Below, piece by piece: positions 5,190 through 16,598 of a stretch of DNA of 32,783 bases. Numbering within the stretch: position 1 is the first letter of the stretch; the number at the start of each line of letters is the position of its first letter. The notes under the pieces were generated by a model. It saw only the letters and a program-made list of their open reading frames with translations. It did no database searches and was not told the origin of the DNA. Source of the DNA: an uncultured PS1 clade bacterium. Its GTDB lineage: Bacteria; Pseudomonadota; Alphaproteobacteria; MED-G09. The DNA is taken from NCBI GenBank assembly GCA_902609025.1, contig CACLQD010000011.1:1-32783 (forward strand). Reading direction: 5' to 3'. Made by a program: the position numbers and the translations under genes.

Positions 5190-5234
5190 TTTAATAAATA
5201 ATTTTTAAGCTTATTAGAAATCTGGGAGGAAATT

Positions 5235-7186: not shown

Positions 7187-10100
7187 TTAAATGATATACA
7201 TATCCGTCATTGTACCAGTATCTGATCCTGATAAATTAAGGATATTATCTATACCAAAAGAAAGAGCAAACTCTGCGAAAGTGAGGTCAACGCCATCCGT
7301 ACCGTTAGTAATATTACCACCCATATTAAAAGTAAAATTATCTGCACCATTAATAGTAATAACTCTATCATCTTCAAAGGTTAAACGTGTTGCATCTTTT
7401 GTCCAAAGTGTTTTGACCACTTTTGTATTAGCTGCAATCTGAATGGTATTAGATCCACTTGTATCAATAACTTCGATTGTACTATTTTTTGGCAGGAGGT
7501 TGGAAATAAAGTAAGTATCATCGCCATCCAAACCTCTTAATGTCTTAGCTTGACCATCAGTAATGATGATATTATTACCACTTGAAAAATTAAGAGTACC
7601 TGATTTAGAAGTTTCAGAGAATGGCTCCAAAACATTTTTTGATGAATCCAATTCGCTTGATAAGGAATATTTTGATTGTATTGCCGAAGTAGTTAAGTCA
7701 CTGAATTGAAGTTTTTCTATATTTGTTAGAGTATCAATACCCTCATTAGTTTGGTCAGAAGAAGAAGGATTATGTTTTACTGTTAAGCTGCCATCATCAT
7801 TATAAGTTAGTGTATAAGATTCATATGTATCTCTGAAAACTGCTGTATCACTTCCTGCGCCACCATCAATAGTATCATTTCCAGCACCACCCTCAATAGT
7901 ATCCTTGCCGGCATAACCAAAAGCAATCTCATCGCCTTCGCGAAGTACAATAGTATCATTTCCAGAATGTCCATATACTTTCGTAAATGGTGCAAAGCTT
8001 TTAAGACCCGCATTTTTTCCTTGGGCCAGATAATGCTCAAGACCAGTTTCATAGGTTCCGGCAGCTACAGCTTCTTGAGCGCTAGAATTCTCATTAAGGT
8101 AATATCTTTCATTAAAACCTGGAGCGCCTTGCTCAGAGGCATTTATAAAATTTGGTCCAGTATTCAGAATTTTATCATATTCAAAAAGGTGAAAATCTAA
8201 ATTATTTTTAACAGCTGAACCATTATTATATATTGTATCTTGTTTAAAAGTGACATATTCAATTTTTCCATCATTATCAAAATCACCCCAAGCATAAGGC
8301 TTGCCTTTCCCTGAGATTGAGGAACCTACTTCTTTTATTTCAAATCTCCCAGCTCCATCATTAAAATAAACAATAGGTTCAAAATTATAGATAGCATCAG
8401 GGCTCCTCGATCCTGCAAGATCTATATGACCATCATTATTGATATCTATCATTTGCCATGGTTCAACCCATGTCAGTCTACCTTTATAGGCATCTTGGGT
8501 TGCATTGGCTGGTATAAAATTTGTGACATCAGTAAAATTACCATTACCATTGTTCAAATTAAATTGAATATAATATCCGGCATAATAGGGTTCGTATCTT
8601 GTCCATAAGATTCCGATATCAATATCGCCATCATGATCGAAGTCAGCAGGAAATGTTAAAAGATGCATTTGATTATCTACTCCATAAATGGAGTCAGGCA
8701 TTTTAATAATATTATTTTCTGAAAATTTTCCATCATCATTTACTAAAATTAAGCTAGATGCACTACCATGACCAAAACCAACAACAAGGTCGTCATACCC
8801 ATCATTATTTATGTCAATTAAATCTGAATCTAATAGTAAATTTGAATGGCTTGACTCATTTGTTAGGGGCCAGCTGTGGAGTTTTTTATATACATCTTGT
8901 CTATTAAAGATAAAACTACCATCTTCTTGCTGCAGTAATTCATATCCCGCATCTGGTTGCATCCTGCCCATAAAAACATCATCTAAACCATCACCATTAA
9001 TATCCCCTGTAGCCATTGAATGAGCATCTACAGCTAGAGGAAAACCATCTACTGCTCCAGGAAGAGTTGGAAAAATATCTTCGGGATTAATATTTTTTCC
9101 AATCTGTTGAGTGAGTCTAAGATTTGATGGCGGAGTGATGGAGTAATCTGGATTAACTCGGTCTATTTCTGCAGCTGTATAAATATTTGATGTTATGAAG
9201 CTTAGAGAATCCGTTGCTTTAAGAAAAAGAGGTTTTGACCTTCCTGCTGCAGCATCAATAGGCATGGTGGAATTTATATCTTCATCAAATACTAATTCTC
9301 CATCTTTAACTGTAAGGGCTATAAAAGGTGTGGCTGAATTAATGCCCTTTTGAGCATATCCTTTTCCTATAGGTAGAATTACATCATTTTGCCCATCGTC
9401 ATTGACATCAAAGATAAAGACTTTTTGTGGGAACCAATTTATTAAACCAGCCTCATATGTTACCCCAGAATAAGTATAGGATTCTGTTTGAGTATCATCT
9501 TCGAAAGTGTGAACTAATTTTACATAACTTGATAAGATTGGTTTTTTAAAATACTCAGTATCGATTATTGTTTTATCAACCATAAATTCGATATATCTAC
9601 CGCCAATAATTATATCCTTTGTTGTGGGACTAATTACATGAACTTCATCACCAACTAAAGTAACCGAATAATCTTTTGAATTGCCATTTTTGTAATATAC
9701 TAGATCATCGCCTCCACCCGCATAAACGATATTATTGCCTCCATCAATAAAAAAATTTTCATAATTTTCTGTTCCATAAAAAATGGTGCCATTAAAAATA
9801 CTACCATTTTCATCATCAACAGAAAAAATTTTAGAGTCATCCATGAATTCTATGGTTGAAATATTTGTTAGGATATCTAGGGTGTTTTGCCCTTTTACAT
9901 GAGCCGATCCATCAATATAAGTTATTTCAAAATCAGTTGATGGGCCTCTTCCGGGAGCATAGGATGCTCTATCGTATCCCCCATCTCCATCAATAGTATT
10001 ATTGCCACCGTTAACAAAATATCTTTCATAATTTTCTGAACCATATATCGTATCCCCGAAAGCCGATCCATGAATTGTTTCAACACCAGAAATTGTATCT

Positions 10101-10351
10101 CTTGTTCCAAAACCATCCTCAGACCAATTTTCTTTTAGATTAATAGTTACTGCTTGAGTTGCATTCCAGAGAGCATAACCAAATTTTTCACCAGAGATAT
10201 TATCTTCTCCGGGACTAGAAACAATTGTGTGCATAATTGTAGCATTGGTAACTGTATCATTACCTTTTCCAGGATATATATTGCCTATATCAGAATCTAA
10301 TTCTGATGCATCAATTATATCGTCTTCGTCTGTTCCATTATAATCAGCCAT
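7187..10351 (-). CDS. Large RTX / FG-GAP calcium-binding repeat protein, probably secreted
   Basis: A 1054-residue acidic protein without an N-terminal signal peptide. Hemolysin-type glycine/aspartate motifs occur near the N-terminus and again at about 793-835 (GHSGNDTI, GGAGNDTIDGGAGSDTAVF). Between them are six D-x-[DN]-x-DG-x-x-[DE] calcium loops of FG-GAP/VCBS type at about 315, 450, 513, 570, 636 and 690, which suggests a beta-propeller of the integrin-alpha kind. A three-times repeated module ending in an NIxxxxFxD-like strand occurs at about 104-190, 193-265 and 828-888. RTX proteins of this build leave by type I secretion through a C-terminal signal, and the C-terminus here (about 1005-1054) lacks cysteines and ends in hydrophobic residues, as expected. 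No secretion genes are nearby. Adhesion, surface or matrix roles are possible; the ligand is unknown. The ATG lies 2 bases after the DUF2794 stop. Confidence 0.85.
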   Translation of the reverse strand: MADYNGTDEDDIIDASELDSDIGNIYPGKGNDTVTNATIMHTIVSSPGEDNISGEKFGYALWNATQAVTINLKENWSEDGFGTRDTISGVETIHGSAFGDTIYGSENYERYFVNGGNNTIDGDGGYDRASYAPGRGPSTDFEITYIDGSAHVKGQNTLDILTNISTIEFMDDSKIFSVDDENGSIFNGTIFYGTENYENFFIDGGNNIVYAGGGDDLVYYKNGNSKDYSVTLVGDEVHVISPTTKDIIIGGRYIEFMVDKTIIDTEYFKKPILSSYVKLVHTFEDDTQTESYTYSGVTYEAGLINWFPQKVFIFDVNDDGQNDVILPIGKGYAQKGINSATPFIALTVKDGELVFDEDINSTMPIDAAAGRSKPLFLKATDSLSFITSNIYTAAEIDRVNPDYSITPPSNLRLTQQIGKNINPEDIFPTLPGAVDGFPLAVDAHSMATGDINGDGLDDVFMGRMQPDAGYELLQQEDGSFIFNRQDVYKKLHSWPLTNESSHSNLLLDSDLIDINNDGYDDLVVGFGHGSASSLILVNDDGKFSENNIIKMPDSIYGVDNQMHLLTFPADFDHDGDIDIGILWTRYEPYYAGYYIQFNLNNGNGNFTDVTNFIPANATQDAYKGRLTWVEPWQMIDINNDGHIDLAGSRSPDAIYNFEPIVYFNDGAGRFEIKEVGSSISGKGKPYAWGDFDNDGKIEYVTFKQDTIYNNGSAVKNNLDFHLFEYDKILNTGPNFINASEQGAPGFNERYYLNENSSAQEAVAAGTYETGLEHYLAQGKNAGLKSFAPFTKVYGHSGNDTIVLREGDEIAFGYAGKDTIEGGAGNDTIDGGAGSDTAVFRDTYESYTLTYNDDGSLTVKHNPSSSDQTNEGIDTLTNIEKLQFSDLTTSAIQSKYSLSSELDSSKNVLEPFSETSKSGTLNFSSGNNIIITDGQAKTLRGLDGDDTYFISNLLPKNSTIEVIDTSGSNTIQIAANTKVVKTLWTKDATRLTFEDDRVITINGADNFTFNMGGNITNGTDGVDLTFAEFALSFGIDNILNLSGSDTGTMTDMYII

Positions 10352-10353
10352 TA

Positions 10354-10704
10354 TTATTTAACTAAATTTAGATTTTTATTTTTAAAATAGTTTAACAAAT
10401 AATGAAGGTTTTTGTTTCTCTTTAGAATTTGACCAGATGTAGATTTTATTAACCACTTTTCATCCACTCTTTTATTGTTATGAATTTTGGTAATTTTAAA
10501 AAGTGGCATTTCACTAGCATGCCTATAAATTGAAAAAATTGTTTCATCTTTTGTTGTATCAATTGCGTAATCTTTCCATTTTCCTGATGAAACGCCTTTA
10601 CCATATAATGAAAGAATTAAATTCAATTCTTCTTTAGAAAAGAAATTTTGTTTCTTCTGAACGGCAAGATAAGCATTACCTGTTATGATTTTGGTATTTC
10701 GCAT
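10354..10704 (-). CDS. DUF2794 family protein
   Basis: Protein of 116 residues matching the alphaproteobacterial DUF2794 family. The core FSKEELNLILSLYGKGVSSGKWKDYAID (about 22-49), then IFSIYRHASEMPLFKITK and a late GQILKRNKNL, follow the family pattern [F-x-R-x-E-L..LYG..VA.G.W.DYAID...FS.fR.A.E.PL..I.K]. Function unknown. The ribosome site at the ATG (10704) is weak, so the start is uncertain by a few codons. The 2-base gap to the RTX gene indicates co-transcription, an unusual partner for this family. In other Alphaproteobacteria I recall it near the aconitase gene, which is also the case here. Confidence 0.8.
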   Translation of the reverse strand: MRNTKIITGNAYLAVQKKQNFFSKEELNLILSLYGKGVSSGKWKDYAIDTTKDETIFSIYRHASEMPLFKITKIHNNKRVDEKWLIKSTSGQILKRNKNLHYLLNYFKNKNLNLVK

Positions 10705-10790
10705 TTTACTAGACTTTCATGAAAATCTAATCGTAATTTCGTCATAATTTCAACATCTTATTGTCAAAGTAATGTTTATTATTGATGCTT

Positions 10791-10903
10791 GAGTAACACC
10801 TACAAGTTTTAATTCCCTCTAACTTGCAGGAATTAGTAGAGTTTCCCTCCGAAGCTCATATCTCTAAAGCGACTCCTAAGCCCTTCTGGAGTCGCTTTTT
10901 TAT
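10791..10903 (+). ncRNA. Candidate small RNA with C-rich loop and own terminator
   Basis: No open frame of use exists on the plus strand here, yet the region has ordered hairpins followed by a strong plus-strand terminator. Hairpin 1 pairs TAATTCC (10810-10816) with GGAATTA (10829-10835). Hairpin 2 pairs GAGTTT (10839-10844) with AAGCTC (10852-10857) and exposes CCCTCCG in the loop, complementary to a Shine-Dalgarno site. The third hairpin is the terminator. CAAGTT (10803-10808) can also pair with AACTTG (10821-10826) in the hairpin 1 loop, allowing a pseudoknot. The 5' end is a guess: TTGTCA at 10761-10766 is a plausible -35, but the -10 is poor. Both flanking genes lie on the minus strand, so this cannot be their leader. 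It resembles Hfq-type regulators of alphaproteobacteria; targets are unknown. Confidence 0.55.
10866..10903 (+). terminator. Strong intrinsic terminator of the candidate small RNA
   Basis: AAAGCGACTCC (10866-10876) pairs with GGAGTCGCTTT (10888-10898) around an 11-base loop, followed by a T run to 10901. Read on the minus strand, as acnB transcripts would meet it, the same stem is followed by only three T, so it is chiefly a plus-strand terminator but may also slow acnB read-through. Confidence 0.85.
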
Positions 10904-10939
10904 TGGGTTTTAGATAAATTAAATTGATATATGATTTTA

Positions 10940-13720
10940 CTATTGCGAAGCCCTAAGGCTTTCAGCAGGCGGTGCAAACTTGGTAAGATCAATACCCTTA
11001 ACAGCAGTTTTATATTCTTCTATTGATGGAGTTCTTCCTAGAATGGTAGAGAGAACAACGACCGGTGTTGATGCTAAAAGAGATTCCCCTTTTTTGTTTT
11101 CTGCATCTCCAACTACTCTACCTTGAAAAAGACGAGTAGATGTTGCCATTACAGTATCTCCTTTTCCAGCTTTCTCCTGGTTACCCATACAGAGATTACA
11201 CCCAGGTCTTTCAAGATATAAAATATTCTCATATTCAACTCGAGCAGAGCTTTTAGGTGAATCATCATTAAATTCAAAACCAGCATATTTTTGTAAAACA
11301 TCCCAGTCGCCTTCTGCCTTCAACTCTTCGACGATATTATAAGTTGGCGGCGCAACAACAAGTGGAGCCTTAAAATCTACAGTTCCTTCATTGGCTTCAA
11401 TATTTTTCAGCATACGAGCAAGAATTTTCATATCACCTTTGTGAACCATGCATGATCCAACAAATCCTAAGTCTACTTTTTTATCCGCTGCATAATATGA
11501 AATAGGTCTAATGATATCGTGAGTATATCTTTTTGAAACATCATCATTTTCTACATCTGGATCGGCTATCATCGGTTCATCTATTTCATCTAGATCAATT
11601 ACAACTTCAGCAAAATATTTTGCATTCTCATCTGGGGCCAGTGCCGGCTTTTCTCCTGATTTGATTTGCTTGATTCTATTGTCGGCTATTTCAATTAATC
11701 CACTTAAAGTTTTCTCATCATTATCCATTCCTTTATCAACCATGATTTGGATACGGGATTTTGCAATCTCCAAGGATTCAATGAGAGTTTCATCTTGGGA
11801 AATACAGATTGAGGCTTTAGCCTTCATCTCGGCTGTCCAATCGGTAAATGTAAATGCCTGATCAGCAAGTAAAGTACCGATATGTACTTCAATGATTCTT
11901 CCCTGAAAAACATTCTCATTACATTGTGCTAACATTTGCTGTTGAGTGGCATGGACTACATCCCTGAAATCCATATGGTTTTTCATGCTTCCTTTAAAAG
12001 TCACTTTAACGGATTCCGGTATAGGCATTGTCACCTCTCCAGTAGCTAAAGCTAATGCTACGGTTCCAGAATCTGCTCCAAACGCAACACCTTTTGACAT
12101 ACGCGTATGAGAATCTCCGCCAATTATTATGGCCCAATCATCAACAGTGATATCGTTTAAAACTTTATGGATAACATCAGTCATCGCATGGTAAACACCT
12201 TTGGGATCTCTTGCTGTAATAAGACCAAATGTGTTCATAAATTTCATTAGTCTTGGAATATTAGCCTGTGCTTTAGAGTCCCACACTGATGCAGTATGAC
12301 AGCCAGACTGATAAGCTCCGTCAAGAGTAGGAGAAATTACTGTTGCTGCCATTGCCTCAAGTTCTTGAGTAGTCATTAAACCAGTTGTATCTTGAGATCC
12401 TACAATATTCACTTTAACTCTTACATCAGAGCCGCTGTGTAAAATAGAGTCTGATGGAACGCCTACAGCATTTCTGTTAAAGATTTTCTCAACAGCTGTA
12501 AGACCTTGACCTTCATTAGAAATTATCTGTGAAGGTGCATAAACAGACTCAAGATCAATACTAAGCACATCACAAGCAAAGGCTTGAAGTTTTTTCCCAA
12601 AAACAATTGCATATGATCCTCCTGCTTTTATGAATTCTAATTTTTGGGGTGTGAAGGATGAAGAAAGATCAGCTAGTTCGTTTTCTCCTTTTTCATCAAA
12701 AAGTTTTTTATGCTCAGTATTTATTGTCAATACAGTACCCGTTTTTACAGAATAGGCCTGTTCTAAAATTGGGTTGTTATCTTCATCCAAAGTTGGATTT
12801 CCATTGGAGTCTAGTTTTTTTACCCAATTCTTTAAATCGATACCAATACCACCAGTTACATCAACCGTTGTTAGAAAAATTGGTGAAATACCATTTGTTC
12901 CAGCAACTATCGGTGAAATATTAACAAAAGGAACATATGGGCTGCCAGGTTTTCCTGTCCACAATGCAACATTATTAACTCCTGACATTCTTGATGAACC
13001 AACGCCCATGGTTCCTTTTTCTGCTATTAACATTATCCTTTTGTCAGGATGCTGTTTCTGCATTTTTTGTATATCAGATTGTGCCTCAGCCGAAATCATG
13101 CATTTTCCATGTAATTCTCTATCTGATCTTGAGTGCGCTTCAGTCCCTGGTGAAAGGAGGTCTGTTGATATATCACCCTCAGCGGCTATATATGTAACAA
13201 TTTTAATTTCCTTATCAATCTCAGGTAATTTTGTGAAGAATTCAGCTTTTGAGTAACTTTGGAGTATTTCTTTTGCTACCTCATTGCCATCAGTAAAAGC
13301 TTTCTTTAAGCGCTCTGTATCAGCCTCATATAAAAAAACTTGAGTTTTTAGAATTTCTCCAGCCTTTAAGGCTATTGATTCCTCTGAGCCTAAGGCGAGA
13401 TCTAATAGAACCTCAATAGAAGGTCCACCTTTCATATGAGATAATAATTCAAATGCAAAATCGGAAGAAATTTCTTCGAGAGAAAATTCCTTATTAACAA
13501 TTTCTTTTAAAAATTTTGCTTTCGCAGTAGCTGCACCTGTAGTTCCAGGAAGCATATTGTAAATAAAATAATTTAAGGAGTCTTCTCTATGTTTATTTTC
13601 AGTATCTCTAATCTGAGAAATCACTTCATTAGCAAGGGCTTCATCATCTATAGGCTTAGGATTTAAGCCCATAGCTTTTCTTTCTTCTATCTCTTCTGAG
13701 TAAGATTCATATAAACTCAT
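10940..13720 (-). CDS. acnB: Aconitate hydratase B (long, Bacteroidetes-like form)
   Basis: TCA-cycle aconitase isomerising citrate and isocitrate, possibly also 2-methylisocitrate dehydratase. It is 926 residues, against 865 for E. coli AcnB. Order of domains: N-terminal HEAT-like helical domain (about 1-165), the AcnB swivel domain placed before the catalytic core (about 170-390), then the core with VGSQDTTG, GGDSHTR and the [4Fe-4S] cysteines in GFVGSCMVH and PGCNLCMGNQ. The text of long stretches (for example LNFFIYN-like NYFIYNMLPGTTGAATAKAKFLKEI and HSRSDRELHGKCM) is what I recall from Bacteroidetes AcnB rather than proteobacterial AcnB. Alphaproteobacteria normally use AcnA. Only a weak AAAGAAAG precedes the ATG, but a good promoter is present. 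Divergent from ccmG. Confidence 0.95.
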   Translation of the reverse strand: MSLYESYSEEIEERKAMGLNPKPIDDEALANEVISQIRDTENKHREDSLNYFIYNMLPGTTGAATAKAKFLKEIVNKEFSLEEISSDFAFELLSHMKGGPSIEVLLDLALGSEESIALKAGEILKTQVFLYEADTERLKKAFTDGNEVAKEILQSYSKAEFFTKLPEIDKEIKIVTYIAAEGDISTDLLSPGTEAHSRSDRELHGKCMISAEAQSDIQKMQKQHPDKRIMLIAEKGTMGVGSSRMSGVNNVALWTGKPGSPYVPFVNISPIVAGTNGISPIFLTTVDVTGGIGIDLKNWVKKLDSNGNPTLDEDNNPILEQAYSVKTGTVLTINTEHKKLFDEKGENELADLSSSFTPQKLEFIKAGGSYAIVFGKKLQAFACDVLSIDLESVYAPSQIISNEGQGLTAVEKIFNRNAVGVPSDSILHSGSDVRVKVNIVGSQDTTGLMTTQELEAMAATVISPTLDGAYQSGCHTASVWDSKAQANIPRLMKFMNTFGLITARDPKGVYHAMTDVIHKVLNDITVDDWAIIIGGDSHTRMSKGVAFGADSGTVALALATGEVTMPIPESVKVTFKGSMKNHMDFRDVVHATQQQMLAQCNENVFQGRIIEVHIGTLLADQAFTFTDWTAEMKAKASICISQDETLIESLEIAKSRIQIMVDKGMDNDEKTLSGLIEIADNRIKQIKSGEKPALAPDENAKYFAEVVIDLDEIDEPMIADPDVENDDVSKRYTHDIIRPISYYAADKKVDLGFVGSCMVHKGDMKILARMLKNIEANEGTVDFKAPLVVAPPTYNIVEELKAEGDWDVLQKYAGFEFNDDSPKSSARVEYENILYLERPGCNLCMGNQEKAGKGDTVMATSTRLFQGRVVGDAENKKGESLLASTPVVVLSTILGRTPSIEEYKTAVKGIDLTKFAPPAESLRASQ

Positions 13721-16489: not shown

Positions 16490-16598
16490 ACTTTTAATTA
16501 AAAAGTTGAAATAACGGTTCACAATGAATCGCCATCCGTCAACGAGGGTTCGTCCACGGGTGTTTTTGTTGCTGAATTAAGTTTTTGAAAGGAATAAA
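16490..16598 (+). promoter_or_regulatory. Structured 5' leader of rpsP with terminator-like hairpin
   Basis: Two hairpins lie between the promoter and rpsP. The first pairs CGGTTC (16515-16520) with GAATCG (16526-16531) over a 5-base loop. The second pairs CATCCGT (16533-16539) with ACGGGTG (16556-16562), has a small CA/CC internal loop, and inside it ACGA (16542-16545) pairs with TCGT (16550-16553) over GGGT. It is followed at once by TTTTTGTTG. This is markedly GC-richer than its surroundings and looks like an intrinsic terminator or protein-binding site, so it could attenuate the operon or be bound by a ribosomal protein. The rpsP ribosome site AAAGGA is at 16588-16593. No ORF lies in this stretch. 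Function is inference. Confidence 0.55.

Follow-up and report, generated by a model that had tools for sequence, protein, structure and literature searches.

Genomic context

The window, that is, the whole 32,783-nucleotide stretch of DNA that was analysed, is a contig (C11) of a draft genome of 0.91 Mb that is 68% complete and whose nearest named relatives are marine alphaproteobacteria of the OCS116 cluster and the PS1 clade. Two genes on its minus strand, acnB (10940-13720, with the domains Aconitase_2_N, Aconitase and Aconitase_B_N) and a DUF2794 gene (10354-10704), are separated by 235 nucleotides (10705-10939), a gap with a minus-strand gene on either side, as the first-pass annotation had described it. 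Downstream of the DUF2794 gene, the minus strand also encodes a protein of 1054 amino acids (7187-10351) that has FG-GAP repeats as well as an RTX calcium-binding repeat. Within the gap lies a small RNA (sRNA) gene of three hairpins with a 3' terminator (10793-10904, plus strand; covariance-model match of 135.8 bits), approximately 105-112 nt in length. No family was assigned to this RNA by Rfam scans, whether at the gathering threshold or at relaxed ones, the best hits being chance-level matches to unrelated families; the sole Rfam match in the window was the RF01793 'ffh' sRNA at 16518-16570 (plus strand, 51.1 bits).

Distribution among relatives

Homologues were sought by DNA, protein-neighbour and covariance-model searches. 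In the whole-genome set the RNA adjoins DUF2794 in 11 genomes of the PS1/OCS116 family, which fall into three genera (g1, g2 and g3); in one of these, G007, the locus is split, with its halves at the ends of two contigs. A twelfth homologue was found in a metagenome-assembled genome (MAG) labelled Gammaproteobacteria RS466 (L051, PBXX01000020.1), which contains a PS1-type DUF2794 gene together with the sRNA (133.9 bits) and is probably misnamed or mixed. The RNA is single-copy, with one strong match per genome; the next-best matches have E values from about 0.006 upward, and the strongest of them fall on the opposite strand of the same terminator. The locus was not found in G001, G003, G005 and G014-G017, most of which are incomplete genomes.

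Two of the relatives bear on which neighbour the RNA is associated with. G017 has acnB and is missing both DUF2794 and the RNA, and G008 retains the RNA beside an aconitase of the AcnA type, not AcnB. On these single cases, both in draft genomes, the RNA appears to travel with DUF2794 and not with a particular aconitase. The AcnA-type end in G008 (L035, 1-1301) is convergent with the sRNA, carries an Aconitase_C domain and is divided between two open frames; its position in the place of the AcnB of other genera is possibly a non-orthologous replacement.

Two covariance models, searched against about 380-385 alphaproteobacterial genomes, produced no convincing copy outside the PS1/OCS116 family, although the 385-genome search used stricter filters by which weak matches can be lost, and only the strongest out-of-family matches were inspected. 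Those resembled the sRNA mainly at the terminator stem and were missing the CCCTC loop described below. In Pelagibacterales and other orders, the loci of DUF2794 yielded no copy of the RNA (best E value 0.04, 16 bits), and no relative of DUF2794 was found on viral contigs.

Structure of the RNA and its control region

The plus-strand fold of 10787-10905 has an energy of -35.1 kcal/mol (z = -4.66), which none of 200 dinucleotide shuffles equalled. With the start of the RNA set at 10793, the minimum-energy fold (-33.1 kcal/mol) consists of hairpin 1, hairpin 2 and the terminator. Hairpin 1 (10799-10830, plus strand) is formed by CCTACAAGTT and AACTTGCAGG around the loop TTAATTCCCTCT. Its main stem is CAAGTT/AACTTG, which is conserved and has compensations in its extensions, and its loop carries CCCTCT. 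The first-pass annotation had taken this pairing for an interleaved pseudoknot, and had counted two short hairpins ahead of the terminator. One of these, the CCTCC-loop hairpin at 10839-10857, holds and is our hairpin 2 (plus strand; GAGTTTC, loop CCTCC, GAAGCTC). The pseudoknot and the other hairpin, AATTCC/GGAATT, were rejected because neither is conserved: when the aligned sequences were read directly, the AATTCC/GGAATT pairing proved to be interrupted in G004 and G006, and genera g2 and g3 do not have this hairpin. The stem of hairpin 2 is retained in genus g2, and in RS466 its basal pair has changed from GC to AU.

The Rho-independent terminator (10866-10901, plus strand) has an 11-bp stem (10866-10876/10888-10898), the loop TAAGCCCTTCT and six T, in keeping with the strong plus-strand terminator and T run first reported for it; the coordinates of that first annotation are also correct. 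Compensatory changes (AU/GC and CG/UA) are seen in its stem. The terminator loop (10877-10887, plus strand) shows strong conservation that is unusual for a plain terminator, reading CCCTTCT in nearly all homologues, CCCTTTT in G009 and CCCTCTT in G010, and it may be a further pairing site.

Upstream of the RNA, a putative sigma-70-like promoter on the plus strand (10761-10789) was recognized by eye as TTGTCA (10761-10766), a 17-nt spacer and GATGCT (10784-10789). TTG(T/C)C is found at the matching place in most relatives; the -10 element GATGCT is weak, and a consensus promoter scan did not detect this TTGTCA/GATGCT promoter. A block at 10741-10770, which contains AACATC...TTGTCAA, separates the start of DUF2794 from the divergent start of the sRNA. 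It has no differences among four g1 genomes, and its AACAT is kept throughout the family. It is possible that this block is an operator or promoter shared by DUF2794 and the sRNA. In genus g2 the block shows an imperfect palindrome, AACATCATGTT.

Covariation, divergence and coding strand

Both sides had changed in four pairs in genera g1 and g3, and in five pairs in genus g2, three of which are adjacent in hairpin 1 (ACC/GGT versus GTA/TAC). In the combined alignment both sides had changed in 16 of 28 pairs and 52 cells, 96.2% of the cells were paired, and none of 500 shuffles attained its covariation score; sliding the partner by 1-3 columns as a control reduced pairing to only 31-49%. Since the combined alignment had been fitted to the model and, in genus g2, slides the hairpin-1 pairs and misaligns G013, the within-genus counts and a hand-made pairing table are the safer evidence. 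Compensatory changes are present in two genera as well as between genera, the outcome that the covariation check across relatives had been proposed to look for.

Among the four g1 genomes, divergence expressed over column-pairs was 1.6% in hairpin 1, 0% in hairpin 2, 0% in the terminator and 33% in the spacer between the hairpins; third codon positions in the same genomes diverged by 21% in DUF2794 and 11% in acnB. Read on the plus strand, the pairing table contains 15 G-U cells against 5 A-C cells, an excess that favors this strand, bearing in mind that the cells are not independent. Taken with the single-copy synteny and the terminator, the compensations, the G-U pairs and the near-zero helix divergence make the earlier proposal of an independent plus-strand small RNA well supported.

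Proposed function of the loops

The first-pass annotation had placed its emphasis on the loop of hairpin 2 as an anti-Shine-Dalgarno (aSD) element. That loop varies by genus, being CCTCC in g1, CCCCC in g3 and A/U-rich in g2, so the CCCTCC loop is limited to genus g1. The conserved seed is instead the CCCTC of the hairpin-1 loop (10815-10819, plus strand), which is kept in 12 of 12 homologues despite changes in stem sequence and loop length. The GGAGG sites first listed as potential partners were located at 1317 and 26748 as given; the third, placed at 5222, is actually at 5225, and each shortly precedes a start codon.

We consider that this is probably a single-copy small RNA gene specific to the PS1/OCS116 family whose product acts as an Hfq-type trans repressor through its C-rich loops, a reading drawn from sequence and from analogy with characterized sRNAs. 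On the plus strand, transcription of the RNA would diverge from that of DUF2794, converge with that of aconitase and stop at the RNA's own intrinsic terminator. Hairpin 1 is predicted to display CCCUC and, in genus g1, hairpin 2 to display CCUCC, both of them C/U-rich loops. Acting in trans together with Hfq, the loops could then pair with purine-rich ribosome-binding sites (GAGGG/GGAGG) and block translation of the target messages. Such aSD pairing is plausible by analogy: NfeR1/alpha-r14, SmelA075/A099 and SisA-D have C-rich aSD seeds for which pairing with ribosome-binding sites and silencing have been shown or proposed (PMC10746234; PMC3927594; PMC12559287), and from these analogues we infer that the sRNA most likely silences mRNAs. 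An Hfq gene is present in 14 of the 18 family genomes, including the genome of the window itself; no Hfq match was obtained in G008 or G011, both of which are drafts.

A target screen of 753 orthologue pairs compared G006 with approximately 0.88 Mb of G007, using duplex energies and simple ORF calling without accessibility. In this weak screen of two genomes, one of them incomplete, no conserved targets stood out from permuted loops: 13 orthologue pairs ranked within the top 10% in each of the two genomes, compared with 10.3 +/- 2.5 for permuted loops. Among individual candidates, beta-ketoacyl-ACP synthase has AGAGGG preceding its start in both G006 and G007 and is a lead only. Further leads of the same standing are genes that, from their N-terminal sequences, we take to be isocitrate dehydrogenase and ammonium transporters.

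Alternative explanations

The outcome of the target screen, which gave no mRNA signal, is also what one might see if the sRNA were real and mainly partnered with a protein or with a further RNA such as an RNA sponge, its C-rich loops then pairing with G-rich RNA partners. Conservation of the terminator loop CCCTTCT equals that of the other loops, suggesting a partner for it too, and RNA sponges are known in Caulobacter (PMC12559287). The screen that would speak for this alternative is itself weak, however, based as it is on two genomes, one incomplete, and on simple duplex energies, and the aSD loops of alphaproteobacterial sRNAs are usually mRNA seeds (PMC10746234; PMC3927594). We regard a protein or other RNA as the main partner as unlikely.

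Somewhat less likely still is that the conserved structures belong to a cis element, either the 3' end of the aconitase message (a bidirectional terminator and 3'-UTR hairpins) or a minus-strand leader of DUF2794. The terminator is palindromic, each strand of it has a T run in G008 and G010, and in genus g1 the minus-strand fold is about equal to that of the plus strand; given such T runs in several relatives, the terminator may also end the aconitase message. Nevertheless, the G-U pairs suit the plus strand (15 versus 5), the minus-strand T run in genus g1 is TTT only, the minus strand is without a conserved ORF or leader signal, and G008 keeps the RNA though its neighbor is AcnA and not AcnB. 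An open plus-strand frame of about 30 codons with a TTG start in genus g1 raises the question of a small protein, but this frame is lost in genera g2 and g3 and crosses the terminator, and the changes lie in the spacer and are compensated in the stems, making a coding stretch highly improbable.

Comparison with known sRNA families

A trans-acting sRNA of the PS1/OCS116 family, the reading that we prefer, has its closest counterparts in alpha-r14/NfeR1 (SmelA075 and SmelA099; cuckoo RNA), which are likewise trans-encoded alphaproteobacterial sRNAs of consecutive hairpins with aSD loops and variable stems (PMC10746234; PMC3927594). The PS1 sRNA also has the architecture by which alpha-r14 is recognized, a series of two to four hairpins whose stems vary and whose loops are conserved; its own loop core is conserved in hairpin 1 and in the terminator. 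In contrast, alpha-r14 has CCUCCUCCC in every hairpin loop, whereas the PS1 sRNA has TTAATTCCCTCT, CCTCC and TAAGCCCTTCT (CCCUC/CCUCC/CCCUUCU), and alpha-r14 occurs in several copies per genome rather than one. The PS1 sRNA also has no Rfam match, occupies another locus and was seen here in the PS1 clade only. Because its motif differs, it is single-copy and it lacks an Rfam match, it is not a member of alpha-r14/cuckoo.

The alpha-r8/SisA-D sRNAs of Caulobacter likewise combine a Rho-independent terminator with an aSD-like seed that is rich in C, UUUCCUCCCU (PMC12559287). Their seed is single-stranded and lies downstream of a weak hairpin, whereas the PS1 seeds are within hairpin loops, and there are four siblings against one copy here. 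The UUUCCUCCCU 10-mer was not found in the PS1 sRNA, and a related sequence, UUUCCCUCC, is inside hairpin 2. According to the passages citing them in PMC10746234 and PMC3927594, AbcR1/AbcR2 (alpha-r15) also have partial aSD motifs in unpaired regions and target ribosome-binding sites; the PS1 sRNA had no sequence match to them in the Rfam scans and is without a tandem or sibling copy. Among the general traits of Hfq-dependent sRNAs, a terminator with six T and a host Hfq gene are present, the promoter being a weak by-eye reading.

The PS1 sRNA is best described as a new family, specific to its clade, within a kind of RNA that is already known. A fuller proposal, whose chances we judge to be evenly balanced, is that it is an uncatalogued PS1/OCS116-only family that arrived independently of alpha-r14 at a convergent multi-loop aSD design, with a fixed seed in hairpin 1 and a genus-variable one in hairpin 2, and that it is tied through a shared divergent control region to DUF2794 and not to aconitase. 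Little is known about the sRNAs of marine alphaproteobacteria that are uncultured or barely cultured, and the PS1 sRNA is a well-defined candidate, supported by covariation and having a clear seed, for which ocean metatranscriptomes can be searched directly. If the proposed mechanism is true, it would suggest that multi-loop aSD RNAs have originated repeatedly in the Alphaproteobacteria, even in small AT-rich genomes.
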